DNA of 64,000 nt, taken from the NCBI RefSeq assembly GCF_002157685.2, contig NZ_AP026738.1, positions 4,464,001 to 4,528,000 of the forward strand, read 5' to 3'. Positions 1 through 48,578 of this stretch are shown here, piece by piece. Source of the DNA: Comamonas thiooxydans. GTDB taxonomy: Bacteria; Pseudomonadota; Gammaproteobacteria; Burkholderiales; Burkholderiaceae_C. The position numbers and the translations under genes are program-made. Every line of letters begins with the position of its first letter. Position 1 is the first letter of the stretch. The notes below the pieces were generated by a model, which saw only the letters and a list, made by a program, of their open reading frames with translations, was not told the DNA's origin and made no database searches.

Positions 1-302
1 TCAGCATTGGGCTGGTCGTGAATAACAAAGTGCAGAGGGTGATGGCTGGCCAGGCGCTTCCCCGAGGACGTTCTCTCATGGATCGAGAGAGGGAGCGTTG
101 CGATGGTCTCCGAAATGAGACGAACGCAGCTCCAGACCGCATCCACCTGCATGACCCCTTTCGGGGTTACGTCCACGCCCGCTTCGCTGGCCATCTCGCG
201 ATCTATGTAGAGGTCCTTGTCCCGAAGACTGAAGGACCGCACCCAACCGTCGATGGCCGCGCGCACGCGACCCGCAAGGCTCGGTTTCTTCTGTGTGTTC
301 AT
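1..302 (-). CDS. Phage portal protein, N-terminal part (runs off the window)
   Basis: The first 100 codons of an HK97-family portal protein, which forms the dodecameric DNA entry channel of the head. The ATG (302-300) overlaps the terL stop codon as ATGA, so the two genes are translationally coupled. After a basic N-terminus the frame reads [20 protein letters not shown] (residues about 54-73), the conserved portal signature of this family, followed by a region ending [14 protein letters not shown]. Recognition is by family pattern. The rest of the gene lies left of the window. Confidence 0.88.
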
Positions 303-2023
303 GCCTTGCCCGTCCGTATTGGGTTACTCAGCCAGTCGTCCATGTCGCCCTCGCCGTCTGGCGGCACCAGCACGCGGCCAACAGCCATGATCAGAGATAC
401 CGCGCCGTCGATCTTGTTGTCATTGCCCTGCTTGATCGGCCTCACTACATCGTCATTGCCCGGCAGGGTTTTGCCGATCACGTTCGCAATGCACCAGGTC
501 ATGATCGGGTTGCCGTCATGATGGAAGCGCCCCGAGGCGATAGCCGCCTCGATCTCCTTCATCGGGTCGCTCATGTTGGTGTAGTTCTGGGTGATCGTGA
601 TCGGCGTCAAGCCCTCGTCGTCCAGTTGGTGCGCCAGGTTTGTGGCGCCATGCGGGTCGATCGGCGACGACTGCACGGGGTTCAAATGGTTGGCCTCCTT
701 GGCCTCTTCCAGGATCTCCCGGTAATCGATCTCCGCCCCATCGGTCTGCACTAGCAGGCCAGCGTTTACCCACTTCTGGTACCGCTCGGCCATGCGTCGG
801 TTGTCGTGATTGGCCACAGTGTCCTCAGGCACCCAAAATCGAGGCGCCACACTGTAGTAGTGCCGCTTCCCGTCGATGTCCCGCCAGAACAGGCGCGCCA
901 TGCTATTCATGTCCAACTTGCGTGCCAGGTCGAATGCCAGCACGCACGGTTGACCCTCGAACTGCTCCAGCGTCAGGGTGACGTCCTTCAGCGCCTCCCA
1001 CTGGGCGACGTTGAAAAAGCCGGCCTTGGCCGTCACCCACACGCCCAGGTGCTTGGTCTTGAACGTGTTGGTGAAGCGCGCCTGCTGAACAGCGCGGCGC
1101 TGCTGGCTTTCCAGATACTCCTGATAGACCGACACACCGATGTTCGGATTGGCCTTGGCCAGGACGGCCGGGTCTTTCCAATCGTCACCCTCGTCAATGG
1201 TCCACACCCAGCCGAACAGCTCCTCATTCGGGACAGTGCCCTCGAGCATTTCCAGAACTTCGCGGCGCTTGTCGTAGCACGGCCCTTCGATATTGAAGCC
1301 TGCCGTGGTGATCATGAACATCAGCGGCTGCTTACGGGCACCCATGCCGGTCAGCATGGTGGTATAGAGCGCGTCCGAGTCATGCTCGTGATACTCGTCA
1401 ACAATGGAGCAAGACGGGCTGGCACCATCGCCTGGGTTGCCGATCAACGGCTCGAATCGGCTTCCATCGGCTGGCCTGTTCAGATTCGAGGCGTTGACCT
1501 CGATGCCCGCAGCCTCGATCAACATCGGTGAACGCTTGACCATCAACCGAGCGGGACGGAACACCTCCCACGCCTGCTTCTCCGTTGTGGCTCCCGAGTA
1601 GACCTCCGCGCCGAATTCGTCGTCCAGGCAGAACATCGCCAGGCCAACGCCGGCGGCGATCACCGACTTCCCATTCTTTCGATTTACTTCCCAGTAGCTC
1701 TCGCGAAAGCGGCGCATCTTGTCGCGCTTACGCTTCCAGCCAAAGGTGCAGGCCAGGCCGAACTTCTGCCAGGGCTCCAGCGTCACCAGCTGACGCTTGA
1801 ATGCCCACTCACCTTTCGTGTGCGGCAGCAACTCGATCAAGGCGATCTTTCGCTGAGCCTCCTTTGGGTCGAAGAAGTACGGACAGTCATCGTCCTTGGC
1901 GCGATCGAGATCGTCCAGATGCCGTTGGCAGGCGAGGATCACATACCGGCACGCAGGAATCTTTCCCTTAACCACGTCCTTGGCGAACTTCAGCGCGGCA
2001 TCAACAGCGGGATACTTAGCCAT
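299..2023 (-). CDS. Phage terminase large subunit (HK97-type TerL)
   Basis: The ATP-driven DNA-packaging motor and nuclease that cuts and pumps the phage genome into proheads. At 574 residues it is full length. The ATPase half has a Walker A-like VNRKNGKS (residues 113-120) and a Walker [11 protein letters not shown]. The nuclease half has acidic residues in [10 protein letters not shown] and in [15 protein letters not shown]. It overlaps terS by 8 nt upstream and the portal gene by 4 nt downstream, so terS-terL-portal is one coupled transcript. Start ATG at 2023. Confidence 0.96.
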
Positions 2024-2495
2024 TCATCAACACGGCAAACGGATTGCCGCCCCCTTCTGGCTTCTTGCCCATGATTCGCTGCCGGCTCGATGGATCCAGC
2101 CCCAGCATCCCGCCGTAGGTGGCCATCATCGCGGTAGCCTCCTTGAGTGCCGTGAGCGCCGGATTCTTGACGACGCCGCCTGTGGCGCCTGCAACGGTTA
2201 CGCCGTTTTCCTTCACATCAACCTGAGCCATGCGGAACTGGTCATAGGCGTTGCAGTAAACCTCGAGGTTCTGCACGTCGGTCGCCTCGAGAACGCGCTC
2301 TCGGCACAACAACGGAGCCAACGTCTCCCACAGGACGCGGCCGTCATCGCCCATCCAGATCGGGCAATCGATATTGCGAACCAGACCAAAGTCCGGCTCT
2401 GACTTGTTTAGCGCCCGCTTTCCCGGGTTGCCGGCCAGCTCTTTCTTGGCCGTGGGTTTCGGGCGACGGCCAGAGCGCCCAGCAGCACCTGCCAT
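2016..2495 (-). CDS. Phage terminase small subunit, P27 family
   Basis: The DNA-recognition subunit that brings TerL to the packaging site. The 159-residue protein has the basic N-terminus and the [14 protein letters not shown] segment of the P27 family, then an alpha-helical body ([15 protein letters not shown]) and a C-terminal segment on [12 protein letters not shown]. The basic N-terminus probably contacts DNA. It overlaps terL by 8 nt. The 176-nt gap upstream, next to an HNH gene, is where cos lies in related phages. Confidence 0.92.
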
Positions 2496-2671
2496 CGGGC
2501 CTCCGGTTTAAATTTCATTTTTCGCGGGCGTAAAAATTTGACTGGGGGCGCGGCTGATTCCCGATAGGGGCCTGGACTTTCGCCCCACCCCTCCCCCGGG
2601 GCCTCGAAATGTCGTTTTTTTGACACATTCGGACATTATTGCTCAAAAATGAGGCAAATCCGCATCGGAGC
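2496..2671. other. terS-HNH intergenic region, candidate cos site
   Basis: No gene is visible in these 176 bp. The stretch includes a G/C-rich block (about 2540-2606, with CCCCACCCCTCCCCCGGGGC) beside a T-rich run near 2615. In HK97-like cos phages the cohesive-end site lies between the HNH endonuclease and terS genes, so this is the best candidate for cos by position only; the nick sites cannot be read from the sequence. Confidence 0.4.
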
Positions 2672-3040
2672 CTAGGGTTTTCCCTTTATCGACCGTTCCT
2701 CACGCTGCTTTTCACCGCTGTGGCACGAGAGGCAGAGGGACTGAAAAGGTCCTGCCCAGAACATCTCCGGGTCGCCGCGGTGCGGCGTGATGTGGTCGCA
2801 CACCACAGCCTCTTCCACCTTCCCGCTCCTCATGCAGTAGGCGCACAAGGGCTCCGCCGCGAGTTGCCGCTTACGCAGGGCCCGCCACTTCGTCGTGGTG
2901 TACCAGGCGCTGAACTGCCCGGCACTCCCGCGCTTGGCCTGCTGAGCCTGCTCCTGATGCTGGTCACAGTAGCCGTTGGCATTGCGGTGAATGGCGTTGC
3001 AGCCTCGGTGCCGGCACGGCCGGTTAGGACGCTGTGGCAT
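2672..3040 (-). CDS. Phage HNH endonuclease
   Basis: A small HNH nuclease of the kind that assists TerL at cos in HK97-type phages. The 122-residue protein has two CxxC pairs (LCAYCM and LCLSCH) that would hold zinc, and the HNH core CDHITPHRGD then FQSLCLSCHSGEK. The N-terminus has a further Cys/His cluster (CRHRGCN, YCDQHQ). The gene abuts the upstream gene end to end (stop at 3041, start at 3040) and precedes terS. Function is inferred from family and position. Confidence 0.93.
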   Translation of the reverse strand: MPQRPNRPCRHRGCNAIHRNANGYCDQHQEQAQQAKRGSAGQFSAWYTTTKWRALRKRQLAAEPLCAYCMRSGKVEEAVVCDHITPHRGDPEMFWAGPFQSLCLSCHSGEKQREERSIKGKP

Positions 3041-3355
3041 CTAGCGACCCTGGCGCTGCAACCCGTAGGTGCGATGCAGCGCGTCTGCAACTGGTCCGCC
3101 ATCACGGATGTCGGATTCGATCAACAGCGCGACTTCGGAGGCCTGTTGTTGGCCTCGCTCAGGCTGAAGCACCTCAACATCCAAGCCGCCGTCAAGCACC
3201 ACTGCCTTCACACCTTCAGGGAGGAGTACTTCCATCCTCTGCATAAGCGCGTCTACCGCGCGTTTCGGCATCACCTGCTGGCACTTGATAACCAATATGT
3301 CACCAGACTGCAGGTTAGCCACCTTCACACTATCAAATACAGAGCTAGCCAGCAT
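3041..3355 (-). CDS. Unknown phage protein of the late leader region
   Basis: A 104-residue protein of no recognised family. It has no membrane segment or signal peptide and is rich in Val, Leu, Asp and Gln, with a segment GDILVIKCQQVMPKRAVDAL and an acidic middle. It overlaps the upstream gene by 11 nt and is directly followed by the HNH gene, so it belongs to the transcript that leads into the packaging genes. A packaging-related or HNH-partner role would be a guess from position only. Confidence 0.75.
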   Translation of the reverse strand: MLASSVFDSVKVANLQSGDILVIKCQQVMPKRAVDALMQRMEVLLPEGVKAVVLDGGLDVEVLQPERGQQQASEVALLIESDIRDGGPVADALHRTYGLQRQGR

Positions 3356-3593
3356 GAAGTCTCCCGTAACAGTGAAACAGGCAGGGCATTAGCTCCAGCC
3401 CCTTGATGGCGTAGACAGAACGGAATCGAATGCGCCTGCCTGCTATGCGCCCCTGGGCATCAAGGCGGCTCGGGTTGTCGTGAACCTTGATCCAGCCGCC
3501 TGAGGTGCTGACCTCCAGCACGCGGGCAAAGCGCTCGCCGGTGTCCACATCAATGACCGTTGCACCCCTTGCGTTCTCTGCTGTGTAGAGCAC
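3345..3593 (-). CDS. Small unknown phage protein
   Basis: An 82-residue protein without a recognised family. The open frame reaches back to a GTG at 3695, but the GTG at 3593 is preceded by GAGGAG six bases away, so that start is preferred. The sequence reads as a small beta-rich fold (ATVIDVDTGERFARVLEVS, then GWIKVHDNPSRLDAQGR). The C-terminal 11 nt overlap the next gene. It lies just downstream of a hairpin that separates it from the Acb2/Tad1-like gene. Confidence 0.6.
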   Translation of the reverse strand: MLYTAENARGATVIDVDTGERFARVLEVSTSGGWIKVHDNPSRLDAQGRIAGRRIRFRSVYAIKGLELMPCLFHCYGRLHAG

Positions 3594-3678
3594 TTCGCTC
3601 TCCTCGGGATAGGTGCCGCCACCGAGTGATCCGCCCCTGAAGCAATGTGCGTGATCGTCGGGCGTGCTCGGTGGCAGC

Positions 3679-3707
3679 GAAAACAAGAAGGCCACCCATC
3701 GGTGGCC
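3679..3707 (-). terminator. Terminator-like hairpin after the Acb2/Tad1-like gene
   Basis: On the minus strand a perfect 7-bp stem GGCCACC-GATG-GGTGGCC (3707-3690) is followed by TTCTTGTTTT. It sits 30 nt after the stop codon at 3737, so the preceding gene may be terminated separately from the HNH-terminase genes. Confidence 0.5.
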
Positions 3708-3736
3708 AGGTCAGATTGCTGACGGGTTCAGGTCTT

Positions 3737-4138
3737 TCACTCAGCTCCGTCGCCTTGTGCAATCTGGTGCGTGCCTTCTACCCCAGCACGCATGCGACGG
3801 ATGGTTCGCTGCTGCAGCCAGTGCATGGCTTCTTCAATCTTGGTCAGTGCCAATGCATTCTCACGGCACGAGAAGGGGCCAGACTGAAAGCTGCGCAGGC
3901 GATCAACGACAACCGCAAGCAGTGCTTCTTGTGTCAGCCCATTCACGCCGACCTCATTAATGGGGCCGTTTTGGAACCGGATGACTGTCGCAGTCTCATC
4001 AGCACCCTTTGCGTGATAGCCACGCACCTGATAGACATGGTGCGCGCCGCCAACCCCGGGCTCATCAATTGCTTCAACGACCAGCTTGTCATTGACCGGA
4101 TTGACTACGTGATCAGTGATAGGGCGGGCTTGCGTCAT
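3737..4138 (-). CDS. Acb2/Tad1-like putative cyclic-nucleotide sponge (anti-CBASS/anti-Thoeris)
   Basis: A 133-residue soluble protein. The conserved C-terminal half has FQNGPINEVGVNG (55-67), a helix on EALLAVVVDRLRSFQ, then GPFSCRENALALTKIEEA (88-104) and RAGVEGTH (117-124). From memory this pattern belongs to the phage helical-hairpin family that includes Acb2 and Tad1, which sequester CBASS cyclic nucleotides or the Thoeris cADPR signal; this was not checked by search. ATG 4138 is preferred over the longer frame because GGAG lies 7 nt upstream. Terminator-like hairpins lie on both sides, so it is an isolated, moron-like unit in the late leader. An unrelated phage role remains possible. 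Confidence 0.68.
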   Translation of the reverse strand: MTQARPITDHVVNPVNDKLVVEAIDEPGVGGAHHVYQVRGYHAKGADETATVIRFQNGPINEVGVNGLTQEALLAVVVDRLRSFQSGPFSCRENALALTKIEEAMHWLQQRTIRRMRAGVEGTHQIAQGDGAE

Positions 4139-4149
4139 GAGAACTCCAA

Positions 4150-4182
4150 AATAAAAAAGCCGCCGAGGATAACCAGGGCGGC
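4150..4182 (-). terminator. Late-leader terminator 2 (tR'-like)
   Basis: On the minus strand, GCCGCC, a 12-nt loop and GGCGGC are followed by six T. It ends 12 nt before the ATG of the Acb2/Tad1-like gene, so transcripts must read through it to express that gene and the late operon. Confidence 0.7.
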
Positions 4183-4211
4183 AGATGCCGGCTTTCGGCC
4201 AGCAAGGAGAC

Positions 4212-4246
4212 AAACAAAAAAGCCCACAAGCATCTGCTGCGGGCTG
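4212..4246 (-). terminator. Late-leader terminator 1 (tR'-like)
   Basis: On the minus strand, AGCCCGCA and TGTGGGCT form an 8-bp stem (one G-U pair) with a 9-nt loop, followed by TTTTTTGTTTG. It is the first of two tandem terminators between the PR'-like promoter and the late genes. Confidence 0.75.
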
Positions 4247-4351
4247 TAGGCGCGTCTACCCCTCTCTAGCTACCTGCACCGCTACGGGCTGCATGCAGGG
4301 CATTGGACGGTGACGACTGGTGGCAAGATTTTTCTTGCGACCGACAGCGCA

Positions 4352-4379
4352 ATTCTAAAGGCAGGCGACCCAGTGTCAA
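4352..4379 (-). promoter_or_regulatory. PR'-like late promoter
   Basis: On the minus strand TTGACA (4379-4374), a 16-nt spacer and TAGAAT (4357-4352) form a near-consensus sigma-70 promoter. The -35 box overlaps the stop codon of the Q-like gene. Transcription would begin near 4345, pass two tandem terminators and enter the late genes, the layout of lambda PR', 6S leader and tR'. Confidence 0.68.
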
Positions 4380-5035
4380 GCCCTGCCATGCAACCGGGAG
4401 CGTATGCCCTGCCGAGCGCGCCCGACACAGTCTTCCATATAGGCGAGGAGCTTTCGCCCATGCTCACCGCCTGGAACCTTGCCATGGCCCGCGCCCCCGC
4501 AAGACCTACAGGCGACAGACGACAACTCCCCAGCTCGAGGCGACAGTTGGAACTTGCGGCCGCTGCATGCGGCGCATACCGGTTTGAGCCAATGCAAGAG
4601 CACAGCACAGCAAACGGACTCCGTCTCTGGGCATTGATCCAGCGCTGCAGTCAGCTGCAGGTGCAAGCGCACCTCAGGGAGCATCTTGAGCATGCGCATG
4701 GTTTCCTTGAGCTCAGCAACAAACCCGTCTTCAAGGCGCTTGCGTGCAGCATCAGAGTGTTCCTTCTCCACCTGCTTCGATTGCTTCGCCGTGGCGATAT
4801 CCCGAGCCAGCTGCGCAATCTGTTTGCGGGTCGCCTGACGAGGGATCTGGCAGCCGCGGCGTGCAGCTGCATCCCACTCGCTGTGCAGGCGCATCAATGC
4901 AGCGCCGAAGCGCGACTTGCTCCAGCCGGCGGCAATCAAGTAGTCGGCATCGCCTTGCACGCCTGCCTCAACTCGCAGGCTGCTCGATTGGGTCGCGCTG
5001 GCGTAGCGTTCCTGAGTCGTTGGTGTATCAGTCAT
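4376..5035 (-). CDS. Putative late antiterminator, Q-like
   Basis: A 219-residue protein with a basic helical middle (RKQIAQLARDIATAKQSKQVEKE) and a C-terminal zinc-finger-like element: VCAAC, about 22 residues, then CRSCGGAGHG. Phage Q antiterminators of several types carry such a CxxC pair. The strongest support is position: it is the last early gene and is followed at once by a strong promoter and two tandem terminators, exactly the sites Q acts on. ATG 5035 is chosen over the longer frame because GAGGA precedes it by 6 nt. Sequence similarity alone would not prove Q, so the role is inferred. Confidence 0.6.
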   Translation of the reverse strand: MTDTPTTQERYASATQSSSLRVEAGVQGDADYLIAAGWSKSRFGAALMRLHSEWDAAARRGCQIPRQATRKQIAQLARDIATAKQSKQVEKEHSDAARKRLEDGFVAELKETMRMLKMLPEVRLHLQLTAALDQCPETESVCCAVLLHWLKPVCAACSGRKFQLSPRAGELSSVACRSCGGAGHGKVPGGEHGRKLLAYMEDCVGRARQGIRSRLHGRA

Positions 5036-5049
5036 CCTGTCCTCTTTCT

Positions 5050-5310
5050 TCAATTGCCCATCAAGCGCCGCACGGTCACGTTCAGCGCGTCCAGTTCGCT
5101 CATCTTTTTGATTGCCCACATGCGGCGCTGGCCGTGCAGCCCCATCAGCGGGCCGCGATGGCAGCTCTCGCACAAGGCCACGACGGTGTATTGCTGGCGC
5201 TGCTCGATGTGGTGCGCCTCGCTGGGCCCGGCCTGGTCGCAGACGCTGCAGGGCAGCTCCTTGACCGCTGCCAGGTGGGCGCGCTCTTTGTCGCTCAGTC
5301 GATTCAGCAT
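5050..5310 (-). CDS. Small HNH/Ref-like recombination nuclease
   Basis: An 86-residue protein with LPCSVCDQAGPSEAHHIEQR (about 20-39) and ALCESCHRGPLMGLHG, a compact His-Cys zinc nuclease core like those of Ref-type RecA-dependent nucleases and nin-region HNH proteins. The start at 5310 has AGGAGG 8 nt upstream, inside the end of the previous gene, with which it overlaps by 7 nt. The position between replication genes and Q matches the lambda nin region. The nuclease call is by motif; the cleavage target is unknown. Confidence 0.7.
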   Translation of the reverse strand: MLNRLSDKERAHLAAVKELPCSVCDQAGPSEAHHIEQRQQYTVVALCESCHRGPLMGLHGQRRMWAIKKMSELDALNVTVRRLMGN

Positions 5311-5678
5311 CCGGCGCCCTCCTGCTCCAGTGCGCTCAGCGCCAGCTCCAGGGCGGCCAGTGCATTCCATGCTTCATGTGCCAGATGCGGAAGCCCACTT
5401 TCTGAATCAGAAGCCTCGATCGCACCCTGCAGACGATGGCGGTCCTTGGCTGCAACGTAGCGGCGCCGCCCATCCGGCACACTGCGCCAGCCTTCCTCGG
5501 TGTACTTGCGCGCACCATATGCAGCGACCTCGGCAACGGCCAGCAAGGCGCGTGGAAAGCCGTTCAGAACCAGATCAGGCCTAGCTTTGCCCGCATCCAG
5601 CTTGGCGCCGGGCTCATGAGGATTGCAGCCGTTCGGGTCGCGCTGCTCTATCGTGCCCGTTGTCACATTCACCACCAT
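5304..5678 (-). CDS. dATP/dGTP diphosphohydrolase-domain protein (DUF5664-like)
   Basis: A 124-residue all-helical protein. The start GAKLDAGKARPDLVLNGFPR, then AYGARKYTEEGWRSVPDGRRRY and LPHLAHEAWNALAALELAL, are typical of phage proteins assigned to the dATP/dGTP diphosphohydrolase N-terminal (DUF5664) family, related to MazG-type pyrophosphatases. Such enzymes would adjust the dNTP pool during replication. The assignment is from memory of the family. It lies in the coupled early operon: 14 nt from the gene before, overlapping the gene after. Confidence 0.72.
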   Translation of the reverse strand: MVVNVTTGTIEQRDPNGCNPHEPGAKLDAGKARPDLVLNGFPRALLAVAEVAAYGARKYTEEGWRSVPDGRRRYVAAKDRHRLQGAIEASDSESGLPHLAHEAWNALAALELALSALEQEGAGC

Positions 5679-5692
5679 GCGCGCCCCCTGTC

Positions 5693-5926
5693 CTATACCG
5701 CCACCAGACTGCCGTAGTCGTCGACCACGCAGACCATGCTGCCGCCCACCTGCACCCGGTTGCAGCAGCGGTTCTCCATCCAGTGCTCGATCAGATAGCG
5801 GCCATCGCTCAGGCGCTCATAGGTCGGCCACACCAGCCGCGTGATGCGCGAAGCGCTGGGCGGCTTGCGCTGGCCAGCCAGGGGCACGACCTTGCCAAAG
5901 AATGCGGGGTTCAGTGCCTGGGTCAT
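5693..5926 (-). CDS. Small unknown early phage protein
   Basis: A 77-residue protein of no recognised family, with a basic N-terminal half (GQRKPPSASRITRLVWP) and a beta-rich C-terminal half (MVCVVDDYGSLVAV). The start overlaps the preceding stop by 4 nt (ATGA), so it is translated with the DUF1064 gene in the early operon. Nothing indicates membrane location or enzymatic activity. Confidence 0.7.
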   Translation of the reverse strand: MTQALNPAFFGKVVPLAGQRKPPSASRITRLVWPTYERLSDGRYLIEHWMENRCCNRVQVGGSMVCVVDDYGSLVAV

Positions 5927-6315
5927 TTGATCACCCGCACTTCCCGCCCCAGCAGAGCCTTCATCAGGTGGCGCTTGATCTTGAATTCAGGGGTCTCTAC
6001 GCCCTTCACATCCTCGATCACCTCGGCGCCCTGCTCCAGGTACACGAAGTCGGCGATGTAGCGAATCGCAGGACGGGCGCGCGCAGCGCCAGCAAACTTG
6101 ACTGATGGAACCATCTCGAACACCACCTGCCGGCGCAGATCGCTGATGTGGCCGCCGCGCTGCAGCATCTGCAGGTGTGACCAGCGGTGGAGCTCGGCCA
6201 AGCTGTCGAACTTGCCGCCACCCGCTGCAGTGATCTTCCTGTTGCCGTACTTGGAGCCCGGGGTCCTGGGAACCAGTTTCAGCGTGTGTCCCGTCAACTT
6301 CATTTTCTTGTTCAC
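5923..6315 (-). CDS. DUF1064 family endonuclease-like protein
   Basis: A 130-residue protein of the phage DUF1064 family, which has a restriction-endonuclease-like fold and lies in replication/recombination modules. Visible signature: KYGNRKI, KFDSLAELHRW, GHISDLRRQVVFEM, IRYIADFVYLEQG and EVIEDVKGVETPEFKIKRHL, where the D, E and K residues form a PD-(D/E)xK-like set. The frame extends to a GTG at 6345, but the GTG at 6315 overlaps the upstream stop as GTGA and has GGGAGGG 8 nt before it, so it is preferred. A junction-resolving role is suggested by context only. Confidence 0.82.
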   Translation of the reverse strand: MNKKMKLTGHTLKLVPRTPGSKYGNRKITAAGGGKFDSLAELHRWSHLQMLQRGGHISDLRRQVVFEMVPSVKFAGAARARPAIRYIADFVYLEQGAEVIEDVKGVETPEFKIKRHLMKALLGREVRVIK

Positions 6316-7091
6316 TCTGTCGCCCTCCCGCGAAAGCTTTCCCACTGGAACGGCATAACGTCGCCGCCATCCTCACGCAGGCGATCCATCACACGCTCCC
6401 CCAGGAACGCGGCAACATCGTCTATGGAAAGGTTTGACAAGAACAGTGACGGCTTACGCTTCTCGTAGCGCTCGTTGAGCACGTCAAACAGCAGGTTCTT
6501 TTCAAAATCGCTGCCAAACTGCACTCCAACCTCATCCAAGATCAAGAGGTCTGGGAACACCATCGCAGCAATGGCTTCGCCTTCGGTCTCTCCACTGCGC
6601 TTGGCCCAGGTGTCCTTGATGCGACGGACAGCGCGGGCGACCGTGCTAAACAGCACTGAAGCACCATGCGTGTGCATGACCTGCATGCCGATACCGACGG
6701 CTAAGTGCGTCTTACCTGTGCCGACGTTGCCAACGAAGATCGCGCCACGGCCCTTGCTCTGCACCGCGGAGAAGTTGTCTGCGTAGTCCTTGGCGAAGCG
6801 CAACGCTGCCTGCTGCTCCGGGGTCTCCGCTATGTAGTTGCGCAAGCGGCAGCTCTGGAAGCGCTCAGGGATGGCGGCCGAACCAAGGCGCTTCTCCCAC
6901 GCTTCGCGGGCACGACGCTTTTGCTCGTCCTGGGCCTGAGCATCTTCTTTAGCCTTCGCTTCATCAGCGCACAGGTTGCACTTGGTCCAGATGTCGCCCA
7001 GATGGCAACGGCTCAGAAACAAGCCATGCGTCGGGCAGGTGCTCTCGCGCGTCAAGGGCGGGCGGTGTATGCGGGATGCAAGCAAGTCCAT
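6312..7091 (-). CDS. DnaC-like helicase loader, AAA+ ATPase
   Basis: Loads the host DnaB-type helicase onto the phage origin. The 259-residue protein has an N-terminal Cys/His zinc-like cluster (CPTHG, then CNLC), a charged helical linker, and an AAA+ core with Walker A VGNVGTGKTH (about 120-129) and Walker B LLILDEVGVQF. The C-terminus ends in an arginine-rich segment (RVMDRLREDGG). It directly follows the replication initiator (shared base at 7091), which is the O-P arrangement of lambdoid phages. P-type loaders are a different family, so DnaC-like is the right comparison. Confidence 0.9.
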   Translation of the reverse strand: MDLLASRIHRPPLTRESTCPTHGLFLSRCHLGDIWTKCNLCADEAKAKEDAQAQDEQKRRAREAWEKRLGSAAIPERFQSCRLRNYIAETPEQQAALRFAKDYADNFSAVQSKGRGAIFVGNVGTGKTHLAVGIGMQVMHTHGASVLFSTVARAVRRIKDTWAKRSGETEGEAIAAMVFPDLLILDEVGVQFGSDFEKNLLFDVLNERYEKRKPSLFLSNLSIDDVAAFLGERVMDRLREDGGDVMPFQWESFRGRATE

Positions 7092-11396: not shown

Positions 11397-12608
11397 ATGT
11401 TCAAGAACATGACCATGTACCGTATTGCCGAAAGCTGGCAGAGCGATCTGCAGCTGCTGGAAGATGCGCTGCAAAAGACAGTCTTTGAGGAGTGCGGTGC
11501 GACCCAGGAGCGCTCCGTGGGCTGGGTGCCACCGCGCGGCGAGGCTCACGGCGCTCTGGTCGAATCCGTGGCAGGTCAATGGGTGATGCGCTTCATGACC
11601 GAGGCGAAGGTGCTGCCGGCCAGCGTGCTCAATCGCAAGGTCAACGAGAAAGCTGAGCACATCGAAAAGACCGAGGGCCGCAAGCCAGGAAAGAAGGAAA
11701 AGCGCGACCTCAAGGACGAGGCCAAGCTGGACCTGCTGCCCATGGCCTTCACCAAGCAGGGCAGCATGTGGGTCTGGATCGATCCGCAGGCCCGCACTCT
11801 GGTACTCGACACCAGCGCCCAGGGCCGCGCCGACGAGGTGGTAACGCTGCTGGTCGAAGGCCTGCCCGGCTTTGCCCTGGCACTGCTGGATACCCAGACC
11901 AGCCCACAGGCCGCCATGGCGCATTGGCTGATGACGCAGGAGCCGCCCACCGGCTTCACCGCAGACCGCGAGACAGAGCTGAAGGCCACGGACGAGTCAA
12001 AGGCCGTGGTGCGCTATGCCCGCCACCCGCTGGATATTGATGAGGTCCGCCAGCACATCGAGCACGGCAAGCTACCCACCAAGCTGGCCATGACCTGGGA
12101 TGACCGCGTGAGCTTTGTGCTGACCGAGGGCCTGCAGATCAAGAACATCACGCTGCTGGATGCGGTCATGGACGGCAACAGCAAGGATGACAGCGGCTTT
12201 GATACCGATGTGACCATTGCCACCGGTGAGCTGTCCCGCCTGATTCCCGACCTGATCGAAGCGCTGGGCGGTGAAGGTCGAACCGGCCTGGGCGACCTGC
12301 CCGCCTCGCTTCAGAACGCGCCTCCTGCGGAAACTCTGCCGGTAAGGATTGCCAGGACCGCGCCCGCCCCTCACTGCGAAGCTGCTGGCGACGGTCCGGA
12401 CCCGCTCTATGCCGAGGCAGTGGAACTGGTGCGCAAGGACCGGAAGCCAAGTATCTCGTATGTGCAGCGCAAGCTGCTGATCGGCTACAACCGCGCCGCC
12501 GCACTGCTGGAGCGCATGGAAGCCGAGGGGCTGGTGTCACGAATGGATGCCAGCGGGCAACGCGCGCTCCTGACGCCCGCTACCCAGACGCCCAGCGCCA
12601 GCCACTGA
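11397..12608 (+). CDS. rdgC: RdgC-like protein fused to an FtsK gamma domain
   Basis: Residues 1 to about 300 are RdgC, a ring-shaped DNA-binding protein that limits RecA loading: start MFKNMTMYRIAESW, then ESVAGQWVMRFMTEAKVLP, KDEAKLDLLPMAF and WVWIDPQARTLVLDTS. E. coli RdgC is about 303 residues and has no more. Here residues about 335-395 add a winged helix matching the FtsK gamma domain (DPLYAEAVELVRKDRKPSIS, then QRKLLIGYNRAAALLERMEA), the module that reads KOPS DNA and activates XerD. An acid/Pro/Ala linker joins them. The fusion might give RdgC sequence-directed loading. The gene follows a terminator-RBS module and leads the main accessory operon. Confidence 0.9.
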   Translation: MFKNMTMYRIAESWQSDLQLLEDALQKTVFEECGATQERSVGWVPPRGEAHGALVESVAGQWVMRFMTEAKVLPASVLNRKVNEKAEHIEKTEGRKPGKKEKRDLKDEAKLDLLPMAFTKQGSMWVWIDPQARTLVLDTSAQGRADEVVTLLVEGLPGFALALLDTQTSPQAAMAHWLMTQEPPTGFTADRETELKATDESKAVVRYARHPLDIDEVRQHIEHGKLPTKLAMTWDDRVSFVLTEGLQIKNITLLDAVMDGNSKDDSGFDTDVTIATGELSRLIPDLIEALGGEGRTGLGDLPASLQNAPPAETLPVRIARTAPAPHCEAAGDGPDPLYAEAVELVRKDRKPSISYVQRKLLIGYNRAAALLERMEAEGLVSRMDASGQRALLTPATQTPSASH

Positions 12609-12703: not shown

Positions 12704-14500
12704 ATGCTTACCCCTCAATTTGTGTTGGCACTGTCTGCCAAGCTGGTGATTGACCTGTTTGCCGGTGGCGGCGGAGCCAGCACAGGCATTGAGCAGGCCA
12801 TCGGCCGCCACGTTGACATTGCAATCAACCATGACGCCGACGCCATCGGCATGCATGAAGCGAACCACCCCCAGACGCGCCACTACCGCGCCGACATCTG
12901 GGAGGTCTGCCCCCGTCAAGCCACGGGCGGTCAGCCGGTGGGACTGCTGCATGCTTCCCCGGACTGCACCCACCACAGCCAGGCGCTGGGCGGCCAGCCG
13001 CGCAGCAAAGAGATTCGCTCCCTGGCCTGGGTCGTGCCTCGCTGGGGCGGCATCGCCAAGCCTGATGTCATCACCCTGGAGAACGTGGAGCAAATGCTGC
13101 TCTGGTGCAGGCTGATTGCCAAGCGCTGCCCGGAAACCGGCCGCGTTGTTACGCTGGACAAGATCAAGGATGCATCAGGCAAGGTTACATACCGCGTGGC
13201 TGAGCCAGGCGAGCGCGTGCCGCGCGGCAATCAGTACCTTGTGCCGGACAAGAAACAGCTTGGCAAGACCTGGAATCGCTTTGTGCTGATGCTTCGCAAT
13301 CAGGGCTATGTCGTGCAGTGGCGCGTGATCTGCAATGCAGACCTAGGCTGCCACAGCACCCGAACTCGCCTGTACATGATCGCGCGCAGGGACGGTCTGC
13401 CCATCGTCTGGCCCGAAAAGACCCATGCCAAGAAGCCTGTTGGCAAACTCAAACCCCACAAGCCAGCCGCCGACTGCATCGACTGGAGCATTCCCGGCAC
13501 GAGCATATTCGGTCGGAAGAAGCCATTGGCCGATGCCACGATGCGCCGCATTCAGCACGGCATGCAGAAGTATGTGATTGGCAGCAAAGATCCATTCATT
13601 GCCCCAGCTGCAGCACACGCAGCCTTCATCACCAAGTTCAACACCGGCTCTGTCGGCGTGGATCTACGTGAGTCTGTGCCTACCGTGACGGCGGGCGGAA
13701 ATCCAGTGCGGCCCGGTACCGGCACCACAATTGGACTAGTTGCCGCTTCCATGGTTCAGGTTGGGTATGGGGAGCGCAAGGGCCAAGAGCCGCGCGCCAT
13801 GGATATTGAATCAGCCATCGGCACCATGGTTGCGGGCAGCGTCAAGCATGCGGTGGCGTCTGCATATCTTGTGCAGGCGGGTCACGGCGAAGGCTCAGGC
13901 GCCACAAAGCGCCGCAGCCACGGCACGAACGACATCACCGGGTCCGTGGGCACAGTGACGGCCAGCGGCGGCGGGCAGAGCCTTGCCACGGCCTTCATGG
14001 TGCAAGCGAATGGCGGATTCAACACCACACCGGCAAGGGATCTGCGAGAGGGCATGTCCACAGTCACGACCAGCGGCAGCCAGCAGCAGCTGATTACCGC
14101 AAAGCTGGAGCAGCCGAGACTGAGCCCGGAGCATGAGGCCGGCGCCCTGCGCTGTGCTGCATTCCTGATGCGATACCACGGCAGCGGCGGGCAGTGGGCG
14201 GACCTGCGCGAGCCGGTCACAACAATCACCACCCGCGACCGCCTCGCACTGGTGACCGTCTGGCTCAAGGGAGAGCCCTGGGTAATCGTAGACATCACGC
14301 TGCGCATGCTGGTGCCGCGCGAGCTCTACAACGCTCAGGACTTTCCGCCGAACTACATCATCGACCGCACGGCCGCAGGCAAGCCCCTGACGAAAACGGC
14401 ACAGGTGCGAATGGCCGGCAATAGCGTCAGCCCCCTACCCATGCGGCTGATCGTGGCCGCGAACTACAGCGAAGCAGGCCAGGCCCGAAAAGTCGCCTGA
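12704..14500 (+). CDS. Phage C5-cytosine DNA methyltransferase with internal repeats
   Basis: Methylates cytosine at C5, probably protecting phage DNA from host restriction; no partner nuclease lies nearby. The 598-residue protein has motif I DLFAGGGGAS (17-26), motif IV ASPDCTHHS with the nucleophile Cys88 (Pro-Asp-Cys instead of Pro-Pro-Cys), motif VI LENVEQ, motif VIII/IX-like QWRVICNADLGCHSTRTRLY and motif X MAGNSVSP. Between VIII and X, residues about 315-500 repeat a unit of the form DLRE.V.TVTAGG...VAASMVQ about five times and replace a normal target-recognition domain. It is 200 residues longer than typical enzymes for that reason. Confidence 0.92.
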   Translation: MLTPQFVLALSAKLVIDLFAGGGGASTGIEQAIGRHVDIAINHDADAIGMHEANHPQTRHYRADIWEVCPRQATGGQPVGLLHASPDCTHHSQALGGQPRSKEIRSLAWVVPRWGGIAKPDVITLENVEQMLLWCRLIAKRCPETGRVVTLDKIKDASGKVTYRVAEPGERVPRGNQYLVPDKKQLGKTWNRFVLMLRNQGYVVQWRVICNADLGCHSTRTRLYMIARRDGLPIVWPEKTHAKKPVGKLKPHKPAADCIDWSIPGTSIFGRKKPLADATMRRIQHGMQKYVIGSKDPFIAPAAAHAAFITKFNTGSVGVDLRESVPTVTAGGNPVRPGTGTTIGLVAASMVQVGYGERKGQEPRAMDIESAIGTMVAGSVKHAVASAYLVQAGHGEGSGATKRRSHGTNDITGSVGTVTASGGGQSLATAFMVQANGGFNTTPARDLREGMSTVTTSGSQQQLITAKLEQPRLSPEHEAGALRCAAFLMRYHGSGGQWADLREPVTTITTRDRLALVTVWLKGEPWVIVDITLRMLVPRELYNAQDFPPNYIIDRTAAGKPLTKTAQVRMAGNSVSPLPMRLIVAANYSEAGQARKVA

Positions 14501-48074: not shown

Positions 48075-48170
48075 GGTGGTATTTCCAGAAAATTCCAATG
48101 AATCAGGGCGTGCGCTAATACACCCGCCCATGCGGCAGCGACAGCTGCATCACGGACCGATGCTGCGCGA

Positions 48171-48332
48171 TCTCTTTCATCCGGACTATGACCGTCGGCT
48201 CTGGCATCTCACCAGATCTGCTGACCCTGCTGGCTCTGGCGAGACTGCAGGCGCTCGCGGGCTGCTGCAGTCAATGCAAGGCATTGCCACAGATACCGCC
48301 GGTGGGGAATTGCACCCCGCCCTGAGAACGCT
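48171..48332 (-). promoter_or_regulatory. FMN riboswitch (RFN element)
   Basis: On the minus strand the conserved RFN blocks appear in order: CTCAGGGCGGGGTGCAATTC (from 48325), CCCACCGGCGGTAT, a long variable stem, GGTCAGCAGATCTGGTGAGA, then CCGACGGTCATAGTCCGGAT and GAAAGAGA, ending near 48171. It is about 160 nt and lies 100 nt before the RibH2 gene, which it should repress when FMN is bound. The region between holds stems that could sequester translation. Confidence 0.95.
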
Positions 48333-48578
48333 GCTTTGCGGTGAACCTGGATTCACCACAAGACGAAGTCATTCTAGCGACGCTTTGGCAGCGCTTTTGG
48401 CAAAAGGGTCACTATGGTGTCAATCTGAAAAATCAAGAAAAAACCACCCTTAACGCACAGCCACAAAGCGAAACGAGCTCTCATTTGATGAGCATACAGC
48501 GTCGTGAAGTCAACCTGGAATAGCCGCCGGACGTTAAGAGCACAGGGCATTGCGCCCCCACACCTCACCAGACACGCC
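48333..48578. other. Intergenic region upstream of the FMN riboswitch
   Basis: No gene is supported here. The minus-strand TAGAAT near 48376 could be the -10 box of the riboswitch promoter, but no good -35 box was found. A stretch of A-runs (48425-48460) and the start region of the lipoprotein gene on the plus strand fill the rest. Confidence 0.4.

Follow-up and report, generated by a model that had tools for sequence, protein, structure and literature searches.

A Tad1 homologue in an exchangeable prophage slot behind a putative Q-dependent late promoter in Comamonas thiooxydans

Identity of the tad1 product

The window analysed here, a 64,000-nucleotide stretch of Comamonas thiooxydans contig NZ_AP026738.1, contains a small prophage gene flanked by terminator-like hairpins, and raises the question of what this gene codes for and how its expression may be controlled. 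The gene, tad1 (4138..3737, minus strand, with the ATG at 4138 and the stop at 3737), codes for a protein of 133 amino acids, in which all three motifs quoted in an earlier note on this DNA are present. The mechanically called open reading frame comprises 158 amino acids from an upstream TTG at 4213, while ATG 4138, or a position a few residues away, is the start for most of the 40 aligned homologues and is preceded at 5 nt by a likely ribosome-binding site (GGAG, 4144..4147, minus strand). A chance open reading frame is ruled out by the 6339 proteins, the window's own counted in, that are homologous at E ≤ 0.001. The product matches the Pfam Acb2/Tad1 hairpin domain PF24729 (30.3 bits against a cut-off of 27, residues 71-108) and PHROG 2428 (1.2e-34), a family labelled 'unknown function' in version 4 that could take Tad1 as its new name; no match was found in PADLOC or NCBIfam. 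All seven matches among the sequences of solved structures are Tad1 chains or gp184, the best being CmTad1 (E 1.9e-21), with CbTad1 at E 1.4e-19 over query residues 20-124. The Tad1 protein of Bacillus phage SBSphiJ7 shares 44% identity over 86%.

As prediction from the single sequence reached a pLDDT of only 44.5, the structure was modelled from the alignment (mean pLDDT 81.5). The model has strands at residues 5-7, 20-23, 35-43 and 48-54, followed by two long helices at 70-85 and 92-117, which is the order of a Tad1 protein and agrees with the CbTad1 alignment. The helices of model residues 68-119 superpose on 7uav residues 66-117 at 0.8 A (52 residues, equal spans). The whole single-chain model superposes poorly on Tad1 (TM 0.41, rmsd about 15 A), most likely through a different placement of the beta domain and the hairpin in a lone chain compared with an interlocked dimer. 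The structural comparison that the earlier note had proposed as a check gave Tad1 chains only (14 of 14 Foldseek hits at E ≤ 0.001), and together with the Pfam score above cut-off and the solved-structure matches this bears out the family membership that the note had suggested.

In a further reading of the earlier note, the protein would be a minimal sponge of the Acb2 type, extended in a novel way by some 50 residues at the N-terminus. A shared Pfam hairpin domain speaks for such a protein, but the N-terminal half is conserved in the 40 aligned homologues, aligns with CbTad1 from residue 20 onwards and is modelled as strands, and the solved-structure matches are confined to Tad1 chains and gp184; this part of the note is thus very improbable, and what was taken for an extension corresponds to the beta domain usual in Tad1. 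In a passage of PMC12043709, Acb2 is described as shorter than Tad1, lacking the N-terminal beta sheet and consisting of one short and two long helices. An Acb2-type minimal protein was also ruled out as a candidate on the 133 amino acids and four model strands of the tad1 product, set against the short, all-helical Acb2. The gene therefore codes for a full-length, ordinary, prophage-borne member of the Tad1 family, and is one further copy in a known family of thousands. Sequestration of signals by Tad1 is established for homologues (passages in PMC12043709), and the reading that the prophage protein is a Tad1 that would likewise sequester signals is given a probability of about 85%.

Candidate ligands and possible targets

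Residues F84, N94, R111 and R115 of the tad1 product align with CbTad1 positions 82, 92, 109 and 113 (7uav numbering), and all four are identical. We take F82 and N92 of CbTad1 to be gcADPR contacts and R109 and R113 to be trinucleotide contacts, so that the tad1 product would have the Tad1 ligand-contact residues at the equivalent positions. In the set of fetched loci, which gives 91 distinct sequences with the own copy counted, F84 and N94 are each kept in 90 and R111 and R115 each in 91. The papers listed in a literature search with the residue names included none on phage Tad1.

By analogy with its homologues, the protein most likely forms a hexamer of interlocked dimers, in which one set of pockets would bind, without cutting, the cyclic ADP-ribose signals made by the TIR proteins of Thoeris systems, and a second set would bind the cyclic trinucleotides of CBASS. 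With these signals sequestered, the suicide effectors would stay off, to the presumed benefit of the phage. The ligands might be weighted differently, with a CBASS cyclic oligonucleotide (or the cA3 of type III CRISPR systems) as the main ligand of the Tad1 fold and the Thoeris pocket as secondary. The ligands of Tad1 homologues include cyclic dinucleotides and trinucleotides in addition to gcADPR (passages in PMC12043709), and SMODS domains, found in 5 of 53 genus genomes, are about as frequent as ThsB_TIR domains (4 of 53, own included in both counts), which both fit such a preference. The presumed gcADPR contacts are, however, conserved to nearly the same degree as the two arginines, so that the sequence favours neither ligand; a mainly CBASS-directed protein is considered possible but the less likely case, and a sponge with both pocket sets is retained as the preferred reading.

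Neither ThsB_TIR nor SMODS was matched in the host genome (a single contig, 99.99% complete), in a search directed at these two domains; a SAVED search matched no control genome, which makes its result uninformative. Since a phage sponge would serve in other hosts, the absence of targets at home weighs little against the proposed function. PF24729 itself was found in only one of the 53 genus genomes, namely this one.

Promoter, hairpins and the upstream gene

Upstream of tad1 lies a gene for a putative Q-antiterminator-like protein of 219 amino acids with two CxxC pairs (5035..4376, minus strand), so called from weak PHROG matches of its relatives and from the conserved layout. Its stop codon is overlapped by a sigma-70-like, pR'-like promoter (TTGACA-16-TAGAAT, 4352..4379, minus strand), which has 11 of 12 consensus matches and is the sole hit with at least 10 in the 64 kb window, where 0.07 sites with at least 11 matches would be expected on both strands (30 simulations). 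Two terminator-like hairpins follow on the same strand, the first in a tR'-like position (4245-4221) that is similar in the relatives of the upstream gene and the second at 4182-4159, with a T-rich tail reaching to about 4148, so that the T-run ends about 10 nt short of the tad1 start codon. A third lies downstream of the gene (3707-3690, minus strand). The earlier note's placement of tad1 between terminators thus stands, with a second hairpin on the upstream side. RNA folds of the three stretches compared with shuffles gave z values of -1.9, -3.4 and -2.7. Terminator-like sites in the 4 kb around tad1 show no excess over chance (2 against 2.9 expected), and it is position and conservation, not number, that speak for the hairpins.

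A q gene, the promoter pR' and the terminator tR', in this order, form the anatomy of lambdoid late control, and here, too, the upstream gene ends at a strong promoter that is followed by a terminator. This succession is also common among the relatives of the upstream gene: in 37 loci, own included (selected from 63 Q-like loci by leaving out near-duplicates and truncated loci by eye), a promoter occurs near the stop in 22, a terminator within 400 nt in 32 and both in 19, against 2, 62 and 1 for 450 control ORF ends from the same loci, which, like the controls of the comparisons given below, are mechanical calls with spurious ones among them.

The identity of the upstream protein is less clear. 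Its homologues number 71 proteins at E ≤ 0.001, and every named one among them is annotated as 'hypothetical protein'. Two families labelled 'anti-termination protein Q-like' match members of this family, phrog_6060 in 7 of 32 (best 4.4e-5) and phrog_127 in 3 of 32 (best 0.0012) at E ≤ 0.05, rising to 14 and 10 of 32 at E ≤ 10; the window's own protein gave no Q-family match in the PHROG scan. The unlabelled phrog_8027 outscores the Q families (8.1e-7, 4 of 32 members), and the DnaJ CXXCXGXG model matches 8 of 32 at E ≤ 10 (best 1.7e-4). Because the relatives also match unlabelled PHROGs and the DnaJ model, the likeness to Q may rest on a zinc-finger-like motif, and with the window's copy unmatched and phrog_8027 scoring higher, the sequence by itself identifies the protein as Q only weakly. 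The proposal of the earlier note that tad1 lies at the start of the late transcript is therefore well supported as to the promoter and the conserved promoter-terminator anatomy, and less so as to the antiterminator. Another protein encoded in the window, of 124 amino acids (5304-5678, minus strand), has the N-terminal domain of a dATP/dGTP diphosphohydrolase (PF18909); its best PHROG label, 'endolysin; inhibits RNA polymerase', looks wrong.

A slot with exchangeable cargo

The stretch that holds tad1 and its downstream hairpin (468 nt, 4149-3682, minus strand) is replaced by 5 nt in a close relative (L113) with a Q-like gene 96% identical, in which the site is empty and both upstream hairpin sequences remain in the alignment. 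Presence in one phage and absence from the corresponding site of a near relative, as seen here, is characteristic of a moron. A second relative (L114), with a Q-like gene 97% identical, carries a different 69-amino acid open reading frame in the slot (L114:4863-5072, without significant family match); the replaced stretch begins about 100 nt further upstream there, with one hairpin before it and another, identified by eye, after it. Among the 63 Q-like loci tad1 occurs in one, its own. The slots of other relatives, surveyed in 34 of the 63 loci after near-duplicates and truncated loci had been left out by eye, contain other small open reading frames, mostly without family matches. Eight cargo frames from the slots of eight relatives gave few: that of L117 (227 amino acids, L117:4881-5564) is without family, that of L118 (L118:5311-5664) matches DUF4145 and phrog_1305 (DNA binding protein), that of L132 (L132:4927-5538) matches phrog_3482 and that of L169 matches phrog_18476 weakly (E 0.005), with the remaining Pfam and PADLOC matches at E 0.008-0.07 and the Pfam ones under the cut-offs. 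From these sequence comparisons, tad1 is judged to be an optional cassette, open to exchange and placed behind a late promoter that is putatively Q-dependent. Being empty in one relative and differently occupied in others, the slot is well defined and offers a place to look for further small counter-defence genes, for which the slot genes of L114, L117, L118 and L132 are candidates.

The exchange of the slot, with hairpins at its borders, also lends itself to another explanation, in which there is no Q gate, the hairpins were left behind by exchanges of the cassette, and leaky read-through or early transcripts account for tad1 expression. Terminators at the borders of an exchanged slot may merely seal a foreign cassette, and the weak Q identity of the upstream gene points the same way. 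Against this, the unit of gene, promoter and terminator is conserved in relatives without tad1 (62 of 63 loci), so that the leader exists independently of the cassette, and no promoter match was found between the hairpins and tad1 in the window or in the 12 relatives inspected. An ungated tad1 is hence regarded as rather unlikely, and a Q gate upstream of the gene, as suggested by the anatomy, as probable.

Downstream genes and other tad1 loci

The gene order after tad1 is two genes of unknown function, a gene for an HNH endonuclease (2672..3040, minus strand; phrog_144, 5.2e-29, with the Pfam HNH score just below cut-off) and the genes for the small (2016..2495, minus strand) and large (299..2023, minus strand) terminase subunits, both with Pfam and PHROG matches. 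A search of phage DNA with positions 2016-6400 gave 50 records, and the 20 listed match only the stretch of the terminase small subunit (65.8%). In a sample of 50 from 80 viral loci, reduced by the 20 without a match to the large subunit (TerL), tad1 is followed on its own strand by TerL at a distance of at most 5.6 kb in 15 of the 30 remaining records, own included, where random placement would give 2.1 of 30; after clustering at 90% identity the count is 11 of 26. The other 15 records, in which tad1 is not close ahead of TerL, are in keeping with expression independent of a late gate.

A terminator within 300 nt upstream of tad1 is found in 24 of 86 other loci (158 of 1561 mechanical control ORFs), and one downstream in 9 of 86 (97 of 1561), little above the control, in counts that required at least 310 nt of sequence ahead of the gene and 160 nt behind it and left out identical tad1 genes and own copies. 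Of 87 other loci, 12 have a hairpin with its T-run ending no more than 50 nt from the start of tad1, compared with 21 of 906 mechanical control ORFs; the exclusions were the same except for the downstream limit. By eye, the hairpins of these twelve loci are unrelated in sequence in six, and one is common to four. The layout with a hairpin abutting the start thus recurs, yet in a minority of loci. In L038, L073, L095 and L097 a common leader, composed of a hairpin, a T-run and a ribosome site, lies right before tad1 and the DNA further upstream largely differs (by eye), as if leader and gene travel together. Genes for tRNA-Asn (L012:7859-7934) and tRNA-Met (L038:7838-7914) are located just ahead of a terminator hairpin and tad1.

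Further features of the window include a protein in which an RdgC domain is followed by an FtsK gamma domain (11397-12608, plus strand; PF04381, PF09397), a fusion that looks unusual, an adjoining gene for a C-5 cytosine DNA methylase of 598 amino acids (12704-14500, plus strand; PF00145) and an FMN riboswitch (48165-48333, minus strand).

Proposed timing of the sponge

In the proposed course of events, transcripts from the promoter at the end of the Q-like gene would stop at the two hairpins until the Q-like protein lets the polymerase pass, and the sponge would then appear as late expression sets in, immediately before the packaging genes. A passage of PMC12043709 reports that Acb2 acts during induction and not while the lysogen is at rest, in keeping with a late gate for tad1. 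The timing of a sponge during induction would be directly testable with a reporter, given the promoter-terminator layout. It may tentatively be suggested, as a doubtful generalisation, that temperate phages keep nucleotide-signal sponges behind an antitermination gate, silent in the lysogen and released together with the capsid genes. Passages in PMC12657218 describe a guard, Panoptes, with which two of four co-expressed Tad1 alleles stopped colony formation, and passages in PMC12578639 describe the sensing of capsid genes by Thoeris. If the gate is real, the terminator at the tad1 start would spare the lysogen from tripping guards such as Panoptes. Among the papers listed in literature searches, none named Tad1 or Acb2 together with antitermination, a late promoter or a moron, and none of those listed for Tad1 in an anti-defense and prophage setting contained the term 'late operon'.

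Comparison with known systems

Among characterised proteins, CbTad1 from a Clostridium botulinum prophage (7uav, 7uaw, 8smd, 8kbe, 8kbf) aligns with residues 20-124 and shares the four candidate ligand residues, but differs in two short alignment gaps (three residues in all) and in its host and genomic setting. CmTad1 (8kbb, 8kbc, 8kbd), the best match, matches residues 48-126, among them the conserved segment that precedes the hairpin, with the N-terminal part outside the sequence match. Tad1 of SBSphiJ7 is encoded in a 153-kb phage, whereas the gene described here occupies a late-leader slot in a prophage. Residues 124-227 of gp184 (8y6v) match tad1 residues 28-124 (E 5.5e-18) in a longer protein (230 against 133 amino acids). 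This protein is probably the Tad1 of phiKZ, going by 'orf184' in a passage of PMC12043709 and by the description of phiKZ Tad1 in PMC13282480, where it is also said to be injected into the host. Acb2 has the Pfam hairpin family in common with the tad1 product. As to gene layout, a passage in PMC6266700 describes, for Shiga phage, lambdoid prophages with an extra gene downstream of the antiterminator Q and under the control of the late promoter pR'. The arrangement behind the Q-like gene resembles this lambdoid cargo layout, but the C. thiooxydans prophage belongs to another kind of phage and has a putative anti-defence sponge as its cargo.
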